DNA of 64,000 nucleotides from Alphaproteobacteria bacterium LSUCC0396 (GTDB lineage: Bacteria > Pseudomonadota > Alphaproteobacteria > Puniceispirillales > Puniceispirillaceae). This document shows positions 7,656 through 54,298 of this stretch, piece after piece. The position numbers and the translations under genes are program-made. The notes beneath the pieces are model-generated. The model was not told where the DNA came from and searched no databases. It saw only the letters and a list, made by a program, of their open reading frames with translations. Within the stretch, counting starts at the first letter, position 1, and the number at the start of each line of letters is the position of its first letter. The stretch lies in assembly GCA_041228345.1 (NCBI GenBank), contig CP166131.1, positions 434,001-498,000 of the forward strand, read 5' to 3'.

Positions 7656-8795
7656 TCAGAATGGCTCGATATCTCCCAGTGCCTGTTCACGGTGAAAATC
7701 TGCCTCAAACTGGGCAAATTGACCGGCCTCGATGGCGCGCCGCATTCCGGCCATCAGATCCTGATAATATTGAATATTATGCCAGCTTAGCAGCATTAAA
7801 GACAAAACCTCTTCGGCCTTAAATAAATGGTGCAGATAGGCTCGGCTATAGCGTGAACAGGCCGGACAGCTACAGCCCTCATCCAGCGGCCGCGGATCGT
7901 CAGCATGGCGGGCATTTTTCAAATTCACCGGCCCACGGCGGGTAAACCCCTGACCAGTCCGGCCTGACCGGGTTGGCAGAACGCAGTCGAACATATCAAT
8001 GCCGCGCGCCACCCCCCCAACAAGATCGGCCGGTTTACCAACACCCATCAAATAACGCGGCTTGTCTTGGCGCATCAGCGGCGTTGTTACCTCCAGCGTT
8101 TCAAACATCGCCTGCTGCCCCTCACCAACGGCAAGGCCGCCGACTGCATAGCCTTCAAAATCAATTTCTTCCAGCGCAGCAACCGATTCCGCACGCAGAT
8201 CAGCAAACACCGACCCCTGTACAATACCAAACTGGCCATGGCCGGGCCTTGGCACAAAGGCCGCGCGTGATCGTTTGGCCCAGCGCATCGACAAGGCCAT
8301 CGAACTGGCCGCAACCGGTTTCGTTGCTGGAAACGGCGTACATTCATCAAAGGCCATAGTGATCGTGGCATCAAGAAGATGCTGAATTTCGGTCGAGCGC
8401 TCAGGCGTTAACCGGTGCTTACTGCCATCAAGGTGTGATTTAAATGTCACCCCATTTTCATCAAGTTTGCGAAGCGGGCCAAGTGACATCACCTGAAATC
8501 CGCCCGAATCTGTCAATAAAGGGCCGTCCCATCCCATCATTTTGCGCACACCCCCAAGCCCTGCAACACGTTCTGCCCCCGGACGAAGCATCAAATGATA
8601 GGTGTTTGCAAGAATGATGCTGGCACCCGTTGAGGCAACCGCATCAGTCATCATGCCCTTAACCGTAGCGGCGGTACCAACAGGCATGAAAACCGGTGTT
8701 TCAACCGCGCCCCATGCAGTCTCAAGCCGGCCCCGTCGGGCCATGCCATCACTGGCCTTCAGGGTAAACCCAAATTTCGTCGTTTGTTCAGACAT
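7656..8795 (-). CDS. tgt: tRNA-guanine transglycosylase
   Basis: This enzyme swaps guanine at the wobble position of Asn, Asp, His and Tyr tRNAs for the queuosine precursor preQ1. Diagnostic parts are ADSGGFQ-like [14 protein letters not shown] (the first catalytic Asp region), [25 protein letters not shown] (the nucleophile Asp in MFDCVLPTR) and the zinc site [17 protein letters not shown]. The 379-residue length is as expected. It lies 43 bases after queA and 53 bases before queG on the same strand. Confidence 0.97.
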
Positions 8796-49099: not shown

Positions 49100-49381
49100 T
49101 CAATCTTTGAAATCATAAACATTTGGCATCTCTCTGATATCATTATCAAACAATTGCGCCATGTCGCCCAGAGTCTCAACAATCGCCTCGGCACTTTCAG
49201 CCTTCCACCAGCAGAACATAACCTTATCCGTCTTGCCAGCATTCCATTGCATTTGAAATGATGCTTTTTCATTCTTCATTGCGCCGCGGATATCAGCCTC
49301 ACTCATTGTTTCTAAAGCCTGAAAATAAGCATCCATTGCTTCATCTGATTTAAGAGTGTGGGTTACCATAAAATTTTTCAT
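49100..49381 (-). CDS. Small barrel-type hypothetical protein of the HxlR-linked cluster
   Basis: This is a 93-residue soluble protein (MKNFMVTHTLKSDEAMDAYFQALETMSEADIRG, then KVMFCWWKAESAEAIVETLGDM and NDIREMPNVYDF). The strand-helix-strand order resembles ferredoxin-like dimeric alpha/beta-barrel proteins, although I know no exact family. GAGG lies before the ATG at 49381, which I prefer to earlier starts. It is the last of four minus-strand small genes behind the divergent HxlR regulator. Confidence 0.6.
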   Translation of the reverse strand: MKNFMVTHTLKSDEAMDAYFQALETMSEADIRGAMKNEKASFQMQWNAGKTDKVMFCWWKAESAEAIVETLGDMAQLFDNDIREMPNVYDFKD

Positions 49382-49515
49382 TTTTATTTCCTCTCTCATT
49401 GTAATTTTTGCGGACTAAAAATTCAGATTGCGTCGATATTCTGGCCGAATAATCGGTTATGAATTAACGCGGTCTTGGGTGCCGAACACGATCCAGCCAT
49501 CATTTAATTGAGGGG

Positions 49516-49887
49516 CTAGTCAGCCGTTTTCCATGGTCCAAAATTCTTACCTGAATCCATGATTTCATATGCGATTACAGTTTCATCACCGACAACCCAG
49601 CCATCGTGACCGGGGGCAAAATAGTAAGCATCACCCGCCGACACCTCAATTTCACTGCCGTCGTCATGTACACATTTTAATGTTCCCTGAATAATCACCC
49701 CGACATGCCCCGCCTGACAGCTGTGGCCACCAACAGCTGGCTGCACACATTCTGACCATTTCCAACCGGGCTCGAGGGTGAGTTTGGACGCGGTGATGCT
49801 CCCTAAACTGACAACAGCGGCGTTCGTCTTCGGTGGGGTCTTTAGCTCGTCGGGTTGCGCAAACGACTTCTTTGATAAATTAGACAT
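49516..49887 (-). CDS. Cupin-domain protein
   Basis: This is a 123-residue single cupin. The first motif is GHSCQAGHVGVIIQGTLKCVHDDG and the second SAGDAYYFAPGHDGWVVGDE. Histidines in both support metal binding, although the first motif (GHSCQAGHVG) is unusual. A central cysteine pair (C-V, S-C) is present. Such proteins act as small-molecule dioxygenases, isomerases or sensors. It lies between the ABM-type gene and the last small gene of the cluster. Confidence 0.8.
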   Translation of the reverse strand: MSNLSKKSFAQPDELKTPPKTNAAVVSLGSITASKLTLEPGWKWSECVQPAVGGHSCQAGHVGVIIQGTLKCVHDDGSEIEVSAGDAYYFAPGHDGWVVGDETVIAYEIMDSGKNFGPWKTAD

Positions 49888-49983
49888 GTAAATATTCTCC
49901 TCACTTTGTTTGTTTGAATGCTAATCGCGGCGTTATAGACAATGCGCCTAGGAAGGATTCTTGGGTGTTCTGTGGGCAGTTCC

Positions 49984-50283
49984 TCAACCTTCCTTCTCGA
50001 AAACAACGGTTCCTGAAACAGGGTCTGTCACGCCTAGTTCAGGTGATAGCTCCTCGAGGAGGTGGCGTGCACTATCCAATAATCCAATCATGGATGGCAT
50101 TGCGTTTGACATATGCTCGGCGCTTTCCCACAAACCATAGCCCACATAGCTCTGTTCGCCGGTGCGCGCTAAAATTTGAAGCAACTGGCCGTCCCATTTA
50201 TCAGCCGCTCTAAAGAGGGATTCGAATTCTTCCTGTTTTCCTGATTTCACCTTGAATCTGACGACATTTGTGTGTTTAGCCAT
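49984..50283 (-). CDS. Antibiotic-biosynthesis-monooxygenase (ABM) type barrel protein
   Basis: This is a 99-residue protein with the dimeric alpha/beta-barrel pattern NVVRFKVKSGKQEEFESLFRAAD, then YVGYGLWESAEHMSNAMPSMIG and GTVVFEK. Relatives include cofactor-free quinone-forming monooxygenases and haem-degrading enzymes, but many are uncharacterised. It is in the same row as the GYD and cupin genes behind the HxlR regulator. Confidence 0.65.
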   Translation of the reverse strand: MAKHTNVVRFKVKSGKQEEFESLFRAADKWDGQLLQILARTGEQSYVGYGLWESAEHMSNAMPSMIGLLDSARHLLEELSPELGVTDPVSGTVVFEKEG

Positions 50284-50325
50284 GTAACTTTTGCTCCTTA
50301 ACTCTGTTTGTAAATGAGGGCTTGG

Positions 50326-50652
50326 TCACTCATTACCGGGGGTTTTGTAGCTTGATTTGACCGCGTTAATCGCTCTCAAACTCGTATCTAAGTCAAATTC
50401 CGGAAACATCATCATATCTTCCCAAGCACCAGAGTCCTGTACGGCCTTTAGCAGCCCGCTAGCCGTTTCAATGTCTGGCAACTCCATCAGGGCTGCCATA
50501 TCGTAGTCACCCTGTAGATACATCAAATCAAGCAGCTCTCCACCGGCTGCCTGGGCGATCGAAGCCGCAGCGTCTTTTCGCTTTGCAAGACTACTGCTCT
50601 CCAGACCTTTAAAGCCTTCCTCACTATACATCCCGACATAAAGAACTCTCAT
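50326..50652 (-). CDS. GYD-domain protein (first copy)
   Basis: This is a 108-residue member of the GYD family, which also has the ferredoxin-like barrel fold and unknown function. RVLYVGMYSEEGFKGL, GELLDLMYLQGDYDMAALMELPD and the DY pair give the family signature. It is a paralogue of the second GYD gene at 51413. The ATG at 50652 follows AGGTGG, and the GTG at 50661 is less likely. It heads the minus-strand row and is divergent from the HxlR regulator, which lies 168 bases away. Confidence 0.85.
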   Translation of the reverse strand: MRVLYVGMYSEEGFKGLESSSLAKRKDAAASIAQAAGGELLDLMYLQGDYDMAALMELPDIETASGLLKAVQDSGAWEDMMMFPEFDLDTSLRAINAVKSSYKTPGNE

Positions 50653-50820
50653 GCGCACCACCTAATCTCATCTGTTTCGAAAGCAAAGCAATGAACCAAA
50701 ACACTACTTTACGGAGAAAATCATCCGAACAAGACAGCCGCTAGTCCATTTTCGTTTTGAAACCAGTTTAATTTTTGTTACGGTTTTATTTGTTCAAGGT
50801 AGCTTTCATGGGGTTGAGTA

Positions 50821-51267
50821 ATGGATGGTTTGGTGAAAAACAGCATAGCAATGCGCGGTGAAGTAACCTGCCCCATCGCCCTAGCAGCCGAGGTACTATC
50901 AGACCAATGGACGGTTATTGTCCTTCGCGATATTGCATTTTTTAACCAGCGAACATTTGGCGCAATTTTAGAAAATAATAATGAGAGAATCCCCCGGCCA
51001 ACATTGGCAAACCGTCTAAAGCGCCTTTGTGATATCGGGCTCCTCAAGGCGCGCGGTGACACAAAACACTCACAAAGAAAAGTTTACAGCCTTACCGAGG
51101 CTGCATTGGGGCTGTTACCGGTAATGGTTGAAATGGCAAACTGGTCATTGAGTCAAGAGGCTATCAAAGCCGAAAAAATTGATTTTTTGACTGAGCTTTC
51201 GGCCCCTGAGTCACGGGCTATGACAGACTATATAAACAAGCTTAGAGTGACCCATTTGGCCATGTAA
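50821..51267 (+). CDS. HxlR-family transcriptional regulator
   Basis: This is a winged-helix regulator of 148 residues. CPIALAAEVLSDQWTVIVLRDIAFFNQRTFGAIL and PRPTLANRLKRLCDIGLLKARGDTKHSQRKVYSLTEAALGL are typical. The conserved N-terminal cysteine (TCPIA) is the one used by quinone- and thiol-stress sensors of the YodB/QsrR type. It is divergent from the first GYD gene and followed by the second, so it probably controls both sides. Confidence 0.92.
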   Translation: MDGLVKNSIAMRGEVTCPIALAAEVLSDQWTVIVLRDIAFFNQRTFGAILENNNERIPRPTLANRLKRLCDIGLLKARGDTKHSQRKVYSLTEAALGLLPVMVEMANWSLSQEAIKAEKIDFLTELSAPESRAMTDYINKLRVTHLAM

Positions 51268-51412
51268 CAATAACCCGCAGACTATTGTTTTTTTTCAACG
51301 CTATCGCGCACACCATTTTATTACCAAGACACCCTCGCCAAATATTTCTGTACTGGATTTATTTCACGGGAGATTTTTTAACCCTAACTTTGACCCTAAC
51401 AAGGAGAGAAAA

Positions 51413-51736
51413 ATGAAGTTTTTATTTTTAGGAAAATACTCAAGCGCTGGTCTTGCTGGATTTTTGAAAAATCCTGAAGATGATAGGCGTGCAGCAATCT
51501 CTGCAATGGTTGAAAAGTCAGGTGGCGCATTCATTGACCTGCAATTTCTCAGGGGCAAATACGACATCGCCGTTGTTGCGGAAATGCCTAGTTTTGCCGA
51601 TGCGGCCGCGGTGAAAGTCCTTGTCGCAGCATCAGGTTCTTTGGATGACATGGAGATGTTGGAGTATATTGATATGAATGACATTGCAGGGCGCGCAAGC
51701 AAGATAACCGGTGCATATCGCGCACCCGGCGCGTGA
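51413..51736 (+). CDS. GYD-domain protein (second copy)
   Basis: This is a 107-residue GYD protein (MKFLFLGKYSSAGLAGFLKNPED, FIDLQFLRGKYDIAVVAEMPSF, GAYRAPGA). It shares the layout of the copy at 50326 but is clearly divergent, so the duplication is old or the two were acquired separately. A GGAGAG ribosome site precedes the ATG. It ends with its own terminator and lies between the HxlR regulator and the BKACE gene. Confidence 0.85.
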   Translation: MKFLFLGKYSSAGLAGFLKNPEDDRRAAISAMVEKSGGAFIDLQFLRGKYDIAVVAEMPSFADAAAVKVLVAASGSLDDMEMLEYIDMNDIAGRASKITGAYRAPGA

Positions 51737-51868: not shown

Positions 51869-52744
51869 ATGCAACCAACAATAATCTCTTGTGCGGTAAC
51901 CGGTTCTGCACCAACACCTGAAAAAAATCCTGCCGTACCAGTGACGCCAGCGGAAATTGCAGAAAGCGCAATTGAGGCAGCCAAGGCGGGGGCGGCCATC
52001 GTGCATTGCCACGTTCGGGATCCTGTGACCACAAATCCAACGATGAATATTGATTTATATCGGGACGTCACTGAACGCATAAGAAGCTCTGGGGTCGATG
52101 TAATATTAAACTTAACAACTGGACCAGGCGCTAGGTTCTCACCTTGCGACCATGATGCCGGTATCGCATCGAAGGATAGTCAGATGTGCCTGCCAGCAGA
52201 ACGCGTTAAACATGTCATTGAGCTACGTCCCGAGATTTGTTCGCTCGACGTTGTGACTATGAACCGAAGGCGTCACGTTTTTTTGAACCATCCGAACCAT
52301 TTAAAAGAAATGTCAGCAGCAATCCAAACCGCTGGTGTAAAGCCCGAGTTGGAAGTTTTTGATACTGGCCATATTTTAAACGCCATCAGTTTAATCGAGG
52401 ATGGGTTTATTGAATCGCCGCCATTCTTTCAGTTTTGCCTTGGGATTGATTTTGGTGCGCCCGCCACGGTTGAGGCAATTGTCATGATGAAAAATATGCT
52501 GCCTAAAGACGCAATTTGGTCTGCGTTTGGCATCTCGCGGTTTCAGTTTCCAATGGTTGCCGCTGCAGTCCTGCTTGGTGGCCATGTCAGGGTCGGTCTG
52601 GAAGATAACATCTATATAGAAAAGGGTGTTCTTGCGCCATCAAATGCAGCCTTGGTAACCAAAGCAGCAAGGATCATTGATGATTTGGGAGGCTCGGTAG
52701 CATCGGTCTCGCAAGCGCGCGATTTGCTCTCGCTGTCTCGATAA
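51869..52744 (+). CDS. BKACE-family beta-keto acid cleavage enzyme (DUF849)
   Basis: This is a zinc enzyme that condenses a beta-keto acid with acetyl-CoA to release acetoacetate and a new CoA ester. The signature is AGAAIVHCHVRDP with the metal-binding HxH. ELEVFDTGHILNAISLIEDG and GGHVRVGLEDNIYIEKG are also typical. Family members act on 3-keto-5-aminohexanoate, dehydrocarnitine and related compounds. The 291-residue size fits. AAGG lies seven bases before the ATG. A convergent TauD-type gene follows. Substrate is open. Confidence 0.9.
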   Translation: MQPTIISCAVTGSAPTPEKNPAVPVTPAEIAESAIEAAKAGAAIVHCHVRDPVTTNPTMNIDLYRDVTERIRSSGVDVILNLTTGPGARFSPCDHDAGIASKDSQMCLPAERVKHVIELRPEICSLDVVTMNRRRHVFLNHPNHLKEMSAAIQTAGVKPELEVFDTGHILNAISLIEDGFIESPPFFQFCLGIDFGAPATVEAIVMMKNMLPKDAIWSAFGISRFQFPMVAAAVLLGGHVRVGLEDNIYIEKGVLAPSNAALVTKAARIIDDLGGSVASVSQARDLLSLSR

Positions 52745-52806: not shown

Positions 52807-53640
52807 CTAGGCAGGCACATCGCCCTCTAAGCAAATGCGGTGTAATATCCTGCCTTCATTTGGATCATAATCCGTGTGGGCAACATGTAGGGTTGCTCGG
52901 TTATCCCAAATAACCAGGTCACCCATTGACCATTTGTGTCGATAAGTAATCTCTGGTTTTAAAACTCGATCTAATAAAGAGTTTAAAAGATTTTTACTTT
53001 CCGACGGTGACATTCCTTCAAAGTAAGCAAGCTTCCCGGGATGAACATATATGGCCTTTTTACCAGTTTCTGGGTGCGTTCTAATGAACGGGTGCTTTTG
53101 TGGCGGTAAAGACTGCCTCGTTTTGTCATCCACGTAGCTTAAGTTTTGTTCAAGAACATTCACAGTTGTTAATGACAAAAGTTGGCTTTGCTCATCTTTT
53201 TCAAGTCCAGCAAAAGCGGCCTGCATATTAGCAAAGCCAGTATCCCCACCTTCTTTTGGAAGCTTGACTGCATAGAGAACAGTCATCTTTGGAGGTTTTG
53301 CATGATTAGTATGATCCGTATGCCAGTCCTTTGAACCGATTGGCATGATCTTGCCATCATCAGCCCTGCTATTAGCAACCCGACTGTCAAGCACAGCTAT
53401 TTCTGGGTGCTCTTCCATAAGGAGTTTAGCAAGGTGTTGGTGCATTGGATCACCAAATACCTTAATCCCTTCAACGTATTGCTTTGGTGAAAGGCTTTGG
53501 TTTTTGATTACCATTACCAAACGCTCACGGAGTGCTGCTTGAAGCAAGGAAGCTTCATTTGAGCTTACGCCCATAGCGAGGTCTATGCCTGTGACCTCGA
53601 CCCCAAAAGTTCCAGACATATCACGAAGCTCAAGTGCCAT
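52807..53640 (-). CDS. TauD/TfdA-family 2-oxoglutarate dioxygenase
   Basis: This is an iron(II)/2-oxoglutarate oxygenase of 277 residues. The iron ligands are in DWHTDHTNHAKPPKM (His and Asp) and DNRATLHVAHTDYDPNEGRILHR (distal His, then Arg for 2-oxoglutarate). Relatives release sulfite from taurine or open aryloxyalkanoates. The ligand pocket cannot be read by eye. It faces the BKACE gene. Confidence 0.9.
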   Translation of the reverse strand: MALELRDMSGTFGVEVTGIDLAMGVSSNEASLLQAALRERLVMVIKNQSLSPKQYVEGIKVFGDPMHQHLAKLLMEEHPEIAVLDSRVANSRADDGKIMPIGSKDWHTDHTNHAKPPKMTVLYAVKLPKEGGDTGFANMQAAFAGLEKDEQSQLLSLTTVNVLEQNLSYVDDKTRQSLPPQKHPFIRTHPETGKKAIYVHPGKLAYFEGMSPSESKNLLNSLLDRVLKPEITYRHKWSMGDLVIWDNRATLHVAHTDYDPNEGRILHRICLEGDVPA

Positions 53641-53834: not shown

Positions 53835-54191
53835 CTATGCACCTGTAAACTCAAGATTTTTTATCAAAAGGCCAATATTTTCCAAGTTTTCAAGATCAAT
53901 TAACTGCTGGAAAGCAGTCTCACTATGGCCTTTAGTTAAAACGCAAGAAGAGCAGTCAATGAATTTTTCTTTCAACTCCCCAATGGTCATTGGATTATCA
54001 CCGCTCCGCCCAACCATATTGTTAACGCGGTATTTTAAGACTTTACCATTTTGGGTCGTCAATTTGATTTCCGCGTCCCATGGCTCACCTTTTGGCGCCC
54101 CTTTGTACCCGAAGGGGATAGCCTTTGTAATTTCAAGAAGCCTTTTTATATTAGGTTGACGAAAAGCATCATCACTGAAAGGCCTTACCAA
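53835..54191 (-). pseudogene. C-terminal fragment of an MmgE/PrpD-family protein
   Basis: The 118-residue frame resembles the last quarter of MmgE/PrpD proteins (2-methylcitrate dehydratase and relatives): PWDAEIKLTTQNGKVLKYRVNN, then DNPMTIGELKEKFIDC. The family is about 450 residues, so three quarters are missing. The frame starts from a TTG, and an in-frame TAA lies three codons upstream. The fragment begins only about 25 bases from the 3' end of tRNA-Val. It is best read as a remnant cut at an insertion or deletion border. Confidence 0.6.
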
Positions 54192-54223: not shown

Positions 54224-54298
54224 TGGTGGGAGTGACAGGGATTGAACCTGTGACCCCTTCGATGTCAACGAAGTGCTCTCCCGCTGAGCTACACCCCC
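54224..54298 (-). tRNA. tRNA-Val (anticodon GAC)
   Basis: The 75-base minus-strand gene opens GGGGGTGTAGCTCAGCGG and ends CACTCCCACCA, with CCA encoded. The anticodon arm is CTTCG-TTGACAT-CGAAG (anticodon GAC), and the T arm is ACAGGTTCAATCCCTGT. All stems pair, with one G-T in the acceptor. It separates the AT-rich accessory stretch on its 3' side from housekeeping genes, a common insertion place for islands. Confidence 0.97.

Follow-up and report, generated by a model that had tools for sequence, protein, structure and literature searches.

What joins six small genes, among them a cupin and a divergent HxlR-family regulator, in one compact stretch of the genome of Alphaproteobacteria bacterium LSUCC0396? 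They lie at 49100-51736 of the window, by which we mean the whole 64,000 nucleotides analyzed, taken from a genome that is a single contig of 2.59 Mb. The gene architecture of this module, which recurs with related HxlR regulators in other genomes, is well supported. Its chemistry is what we infer: we give an even chance to the reading that the module is accessory, is controlled by the HxlR and uses its small proteins to convert or bind a reactive small molecule. All six predicted genes were open at the positions below, listed with a short dyad that we propose as the operator (aa, amino acids; E, expectation value):

49100..49381, minus strand: SCO4226-like protein (DUF4242, PF14026), 93 aa; last in the row; Pfam E 4.1e-4, below cut-off
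49516..49887, minus strand: cupin, 123 aa; Cupin_2 (PF07883) at 24.1 bits, below cut-off
49984..50283, minus strand: ABM-like protein, 99 aa; PF03992 E 5.6e-4, below cut-off
50326..50652, minus strand: GYD protein 1; PF08734 above cut-off; starts the row
50760..50786, plus strand: dyad AAACC-N17-GGTTT, 27 bp, proposed HxlR operator; in 22 of 25 HxlR upstream regions
50821..51267, plus strand: HxlR-family regulator, 148 aa; PF01638 above cut-off; in the clade of cassette-type HxlRs
51413..51736, plus strand: GYD protein 2; PF08734 above cut-off

In the order of transcription, the minus-strand row consists of GYD 1, the ABM-like protein, the cupin and the SCO4226-like protein, with gaps of 42, 96 and 134 bases. 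The six proteins were searched against Pfam, using the curated bit-score cut-off of each family. The two GYD proteins (43.0 and 55.5 bits against 31.4) and the HxlR (40.7 against 20.8) passed. The other three fell slightly short, namely the ABM-like protein (20.5 against 23.1), the SCO4226-like protein (20.9 against 28.5) and the cupin (24.1 against 27.2, E 2.9e-5). Proteins of comparable cassettes in other genomes passed the ABM cut-off with 28.7 and 33.1 bits, and a roseobacter cassette member passed that of PF14026 with 48.9 bits. From its sequence, the window cupin appears to be a relative of Cupin_2, not a typical member; Cys57 (31/31), His61 (31/31) and His94 (32/32) were invariant in the alignment of its family. 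These calls bear out the six-gene cluster of an earlier first-pass annotation, which had placed four genes in one row and the second GYD gene on the other side. Elsewhere in the genome there is a second copy of GYD 1, 87% identical, at L041:7887-8213 (G000:C1:1884886-1885203), near a recombinase element that carries DUF1330.

We then searched 136 genomes of the order, counting protein matches at E ≤ 0.001. GYD 2 was matched in 61 genomes, the SCO4226-like protein in 51, the cupin in 47 and the ABM-like protein in 15. The HxlR gave 16 matches in 14 genomes at E ≤ 1e-12. Among the 13 at E ≤ 1e-20, all except G129:C16 adjoined at least two set genes; the three weaker matches (E between 1e-20 and 1e-12) did not stand beside two or more. 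When the HxlR alignment was scanned more widely, against genome_contigs, 155 relatives were found, and the best 80 of them were kept. Together with the window and 12 loci of the order, these made a table of 93 rows, in which 10 loci fetched twice were counted once.

At HxlR scores of at least 142, a line chosen after the table was seen, 21 of 25 distinct loci had at least one tiny set gene within 5 kb. At least two tiny genes were present in 16 of these 25 loci, a cupin in 16 and SnoaL in 10. Among the lower-scoring loci, one tiny gene was found in 2/55, and neither a cupin nor SnoaL in any (0/55). Cut or split HxlR genes (L083, L174 and L182), which scored below 142, were left out of both counts; all three adjoin set genes. 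The top group was hosted by SAR116 bacteria, roseobacters (including Planktomarina, Planktotalea frisia SH6-1, Ascidiaceihabitans, HTCC2255 and IMCC1909) and one metagenome-assembled genome (MAG) labelled Piscirickettsiaceae. In most of these loci the HxlR faces genes for a cupin and a SnoaL-like protein, accompanied by DUF3764, SCO4226-like or ABM-like genes. Since our own profiles were built from SAR116 and roseobacter loci, diverged members elsewhere may have been missed.

As a control, we inspected the fetched stretches around 58 GYD loci from other orders of the class; they represent 57 of the 67 genomes outside the order that had a match. Only two held another tiny family or a cupin: L135 (DUF3764, DUF1330, SnoaL) and L144 (cupin, SCO4226-like). 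L137 held SnoaL, L150 held GFA, and six had tandem GYD genes. Among rhizobial ABM homologues, 2 of 19 plasmid records were inspected, and no GYD or HxlR gene was listed nearby in either; beside the Shinella plasmid homologue, two cupin genes lay ~3.6-4 kb away. The co-occurrence of the genes exceeds chance. The first-pass annotation had named the lack of any other genome keeping these genes together as a ground for giving up its idea; the set in fact recurs. Two arrangements among the control loci are recorded here for their own sake. L144:88-2498 is a compact row of DUF6854, a cupin, an unnamed 111-aa protein, Cupin_7, GYD and an SCO4226-like gene, and in one other family of the class, two genomes have GYD as a triple tandem (L116:5712-6313 and L121:5882-6492).

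The HxlR proteins themselves form a group. In a tree of 74 sequences, which included 49 of the 55 lower-scoring loci, the 25 top-scoring loci and L234 formed one clade with a bootstrap of 90. Upstream of these genes, mostly 30-54 bases before HxlR, we found a shared pattern, [A/T]AC[C/T/A]-N17-GGTT[T/C], in 22 of 25 regions (missing from L038, L183 and L186), a sample that includes close relatives and differs from the 25 top loci in that L182 replaces L180. Shuffled sequences gave an average of 0.3 and a maximum of 2, and random real windows gave 21/2160. The longer pattern derived from the window had no second match in the 64 kb with up to three mismatches. As a partly independent check, the dyad also preceded 10 of 55 non-cassette HxlR genes, some of them actinobacterial. 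It is therefore not specific to the cassette, and a binding site of a wider HxlR group fits. A promoter scan found 5 where 5.0 were expected. In roseobacter cassettes, a protein of ~150 aa with a signal-peptide-like start adjoins the HxlR (L170:5372-5833, L171:5327-5794 and L177:3273-3728); that of L170 had no Pfam match.

Around this regulator, cassette content varies between relatives, drawing on GYD, ABM, SCO4226-like, DUF3303, DUF3764, DUF1330, unnamed families, cupin and SnoaL; the relatives carry up to eight tiny genes. DUF3303, DUF3764, DUF1330 and GFA passed Pfam cut-offs in these cassettes; the three DUFs are named in Pfam as being of unknown function. Several tiny families had no Pfam match, and such genes were assigned to the set by size and position. 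In genome G085, the HxlR faces a single-strand row of GYD 1, ABM-like, SCO4226-like, DUF3303, cupin, GYD 2 and DUF1330. As the orthologue of GYD 2 stands there in a row with the others, GYD 2 belongs with the set. In G087, the HxlR faces DUF3303, GYD, ABM-like, DUF3764, cupin and SCO4226-like genes, surrounded by two DUF1330 genes, GFA and one more tiny gene. A cupin, a SnoaL-like gene and additional tiny genes occur in G129 and G130; the genes in G067 and G068 include ABM-like, cupin and GYD, among others.

Two details of these relatives stand apart. The G087 cupin (L021, G087:C22:9328-9696) has an in-frame TAG and that of G092 (L038, G092:C5:82044-82127) matches in a short piece only; the cupin may be decaying in both, or the assemblies may be wrong. 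A 103-bp direct repeat (97%) flanks the G087 HxlR cassette (L021:5370-5472 and 8060-8162), its first part resembling a terminator hairpin, and has no copy in the window.

Structure prediction gave some indication of what the tiny proteins may be. The model of the window SCO4226-like protein is a ferredoxin-like beta-alpha-beta-beta-alpha-beta unit, with a mean predicted local distance difference test (pLDDT) score of 87. In Foldseek, SCO4226 ranked third (E 1.3e-3, template modelling score 0.57/0.64). It ranked first in a second structural comparison (Z 7.3, root-mean-square deviation 3.3 Å over 76 residues), with AldR, ClcF and TftG within one Z unit. Because these three score nearly as well, the match backs the fold, not the function. 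The earlier guess that a further small protein shares the ferredoxin-like fold thus stands as a prediction. An unnamed 126-aa cassette family was also modelled (pLDDT 82); its top match, level with other ABM proteins, was SnoaB (Z 9.2, 2.7 Å over 96 residues).

By sequence, DUF1330 has solved relatives (2fiu and 3lo3), and GYD 1, GYD 2 and the cupin had none at the limits used. Against solved structures, the ABM-like protein matched solely a glutamyl-tRNA synthetase (E 0.037) and the SCO4226-like protein solely viral replication proteins (E 0.045 and 0.093). In a profile-profile comparison of the cassette families, DUF3764 and DUF1330 reached 71% and all other pairs 40% or less, so that sequence does not establish that all the families share an ancestor. 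In SAR116, a DUF6974 protein encoded near a cupin (L254:5332-5643) is related by sequence to 2op5 and 2od6, solved structures from an uncultured marine organism.

How might such a set work? Ferredoxin-like and dimeric-barrel folds serve as small enzymes free of flavin and haem, such as SnoaB-type oxygenases, muconolactone isomerases and cyclases. These folds and the HxlR partner are the reason for reading the module as one that converts or binds a small molecule. In this scheme, the HxlR, transcribed away from the row, probably binds the 27-bp dyad in the shared promoter region and would repress the row until an inducer alters its grip on DNA. The row genes, presumably co-transcribed, would encode alpha+beta ferredoxin-like or dimeric-barrel proteins of ~85-125 aa together with a cupin, often with a SnoaL-like protein in relatives. 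The set may oxidise, isomerise or bind one class of reactive small molecule, and genomes may exchange members to fit the compound. Detoxification or a response to thiol stress, the roles suggested in the first-pass annotation, would be hypothetical uses of such a set.

Several observations weigh against this scheme. Contents vary so much that a single shared substrate is doubtful. Four loci of the top group had no tiny set gene within 5 kb: L172 and L183 are truncated at a contig end, L082 is a complete locus of the clade, and L168 lost its set genes or never had them. Five further clade loci have a single tiny gene, and that of L184, which has no Pfam match, was counted as a member. The dyad was spotted by eye in the same regions first, so its count is not an independent test. 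A predicted fold was obtained for two members, the SCO4226-like protein and the 126-aa family, not for most families. Finally, the N-terminal cysteine of the HxlR, which the first-pass annotation had likened to those of quinone and thiol sensors, is indeed invariant, with Cys17 in a Cys-Pro motif in 12 of 12 cassette-type HxlRs. However, it also aligns with the Cys-Pro of PA1607 and PG_0823, solved HxlR proteins from unrelated contexts, and is therefore a weak clue to such a sensor.

A broader version of the scheme is possible, and we put it forward tentatively. An HxlR clade with a fixed operator would control interchangeable tiny families, cupin and SnoaL as a modular, combinatorial chemical-response system, perhaps multi-step or hetero-oligomeric. 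Its spread among marine bacteria would be due partly to recombinase elements that are very small, target tRNA genes and are bounded by terminal inverted repeats.

The main rival to the chemical module is simple co-travel of accessory genes, in which tRNA-side islands and recombinase elements have collected tiny genes that are linked by DNA and have no task in common. The setting of the window copy, a variable island at tRNA-Val, favors this explanation. G+C content is 42-49% (1-kb windows) at 48-54 kb, against 49-57% at 40-48 kb and 54-58.5 kb, in agreement with the AT-rich, accessory stretch noticed on first inspection. The other features of the island are as follows:

51869..52744, plus strand: BKACE-family enzyme (PF05853); island neighbour, outside the set
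52807..53640, minus strand: TauD-family dioxygenase (PF02668); island neighbour, outside the set
53835..54191, minus strand: MmgE/PrpD C-terminal fragment, island debris; PF19305 E 6.2e-6, below cut-off
54224..54298, minus strand: tRNA-Val (gac), found with ARAGORN; 3' end toward the island

BKACE and TauD were considered as system members and rejected; both are absent between GYD 2 and tRNA-Val in G093. The tRNA-Val and an adjoining N-formylglutamate amidohydrolase gene are present in genus relatives. The 3' side of the tRNA varies among the eight relatives inspected. G083 and G089 each have an integrase there; G080, G090 and G081 share CoA-transferase and HpcH/HpaI-type genes; G087 and G088 have different genes; and in G093 GYD 2 lies ~340 bases away. 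In the one same-species MAG (G082, 94% complete, 260 contigs), none of cupin, GYD 2, ABM-like, SCO4226-like and HxlR was matched. We read the window locus as a strain-variable island, for which this absence is weak evidence.

Mobile carriers of the cassette also speak for co-travel. In L169 (Planktotalea) and in L171 and L173 (IMCC1909), the HxlR and small genes are enclosed by inverted repeats (262-344 bases, 97-100% complementary) together with a tyrosine recombinase that has a DUF6538 domain. This recombinase family was matched in 87 of the 136 order genomes at E ≤ 1e-20, with 10 matches in the LSUCC0396 genome. A non-random sample of 20 recombinase loci, made up of six own-genome stretches and 14 from the top matches elsewhere, contained 21 long recombinase genes. 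Terminal inverted repeats enclosed 18 of them; 12 of the resulting 18 elements overlap the end of a tRNA gene. The family carries many other genes, and a set gene (DUF1330) was present in one of the 18. The recombinase elements are thus general carriers, for which the small-protein cassette is one load among many. Within the 64-kb window no DUF6538 recombinase was matched, and no long inverted repeat was found at 46.5-54.5 kb. An inverted tRNA-Val-like match of 19 bases at 51,301-51,319 (79%) did not extend into a terminal repeat and was given no weight. Phage carriage was also rejected, as none of 63 pattern matches of the HxlR alignment in viral_contigs was confirmed. None of 50,697 phage records matched the recombinase at E ≤ 1e-15; against plasmids at E ≤ 1e-40, it had one match, in Ruegeria sp. 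TM1040, with no set gene in the listed neighbourhood.

Nevertheless, co-travel without a common task is doubtful. The HxlR clade and the dyad recur with the set across genera and orders, and the genes stand mostly in one row, on one strand, facing the HxlR.

The small elements have a form of their own. One end overlaps the 3' end of a tRNA and the other holds an inverted copy of that 3' end; between the near-identical terminal inverted repeats lie one DUF6538 tyrosine recombinase and a little cargo. Examples are L041:4586-6209 (own C1, ~1881585-1883208), L244, L245, L247-L250, L252, L254-L256, L258 and L260.

It is quite unlikely that the ABM-type, SnoaL-like and cupin proteins are instead a tailoring set that makes or modifies a secreted small aromatic product, rather than removing one. 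Tailoring in aromatic polyketide clusters is usually the work of ABM-fold, SnoaL and cupin proteins, and the top structural matches of the 126-aa family are SnoaB and other ABM proteins. However, no synthase was noticed in the gene lists around the cassettes, where no synthase profile search was made, and the content is too variable for a single product. Least probable of all is a metal response in which the SCO4226-like protein and the cupin bind metal: Streptomyces SCO4226, which the window model matches, is described in PMC4186839 as nickel-binding and nickel-induced, with His23 and His76 as ligands, but the sole histidine of the window protein is His8, so the nickel reading fails for lack of both, and other families replace the SCO4226-like protein in most cassettes. 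Anti-phage defence was rejected as well: 9 of 10 proteins matched no known defence family, and the HxlR weakly matched Csa3 (18.3 bits) and CARF3 (15.7 bits).

We know of no described role for GYD proteins. A search of open-access papers found none on the gene set (subscription papers and preprints lay outside its coverage), in line with the earlier remark that no described pathway has this set, and the small-protein cassette seems to be undescribed so far. Individual families do appear: one table row of PMC10434023 has DUF3764 on a Red Sea plasmidome contig, and a 'GYD domain-containing protein' is named in PMC12322963. With these families linked to a single regulator clade, to one operator and among themselves, they can be tested for function together, and a single inducer screen could give context to about a dozen families. 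The cassettes also show small-genome ocean bacteria exchanging very small functional modules.

Four known systems resemble parts of this one. YodB/CatR and HypR are redox sensors of the HxlR family. The window HxlR shares with them PF01638, a small winged-helix form, the N-terminal Cys-Pro and divergence from a target gene, but it belongs to its own clade with its own partner genes, and no azoreductase or quinone reductase gene was seen in the cassette neighbourhoods inspected. SCO4226 (PF14026) resembles the window protein in predicted fold (Z 7.3; Foldseek E 1.3e-3), whereas the latter is below the Pfam cut-off and without the histidine ligands. The cofactor-independent ABM oxygenases, such as SnoaB and YgiN, share the fold of the modelled 126-aa family, and the window ABM-like protein weakly matches ABM; that protein is below the ABM cut-off, and here such proteins stand in rows with other tiny families. 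With tRNA-associated genomic islands and the tycheposons, marine satellites named in PMC11389934, the window shares a variable tRNA 3' side, with integrases at the same tRNA-Val in relatives, but its own island is without an integrase, and terminal inverted repeats are a feature of the related small elements.

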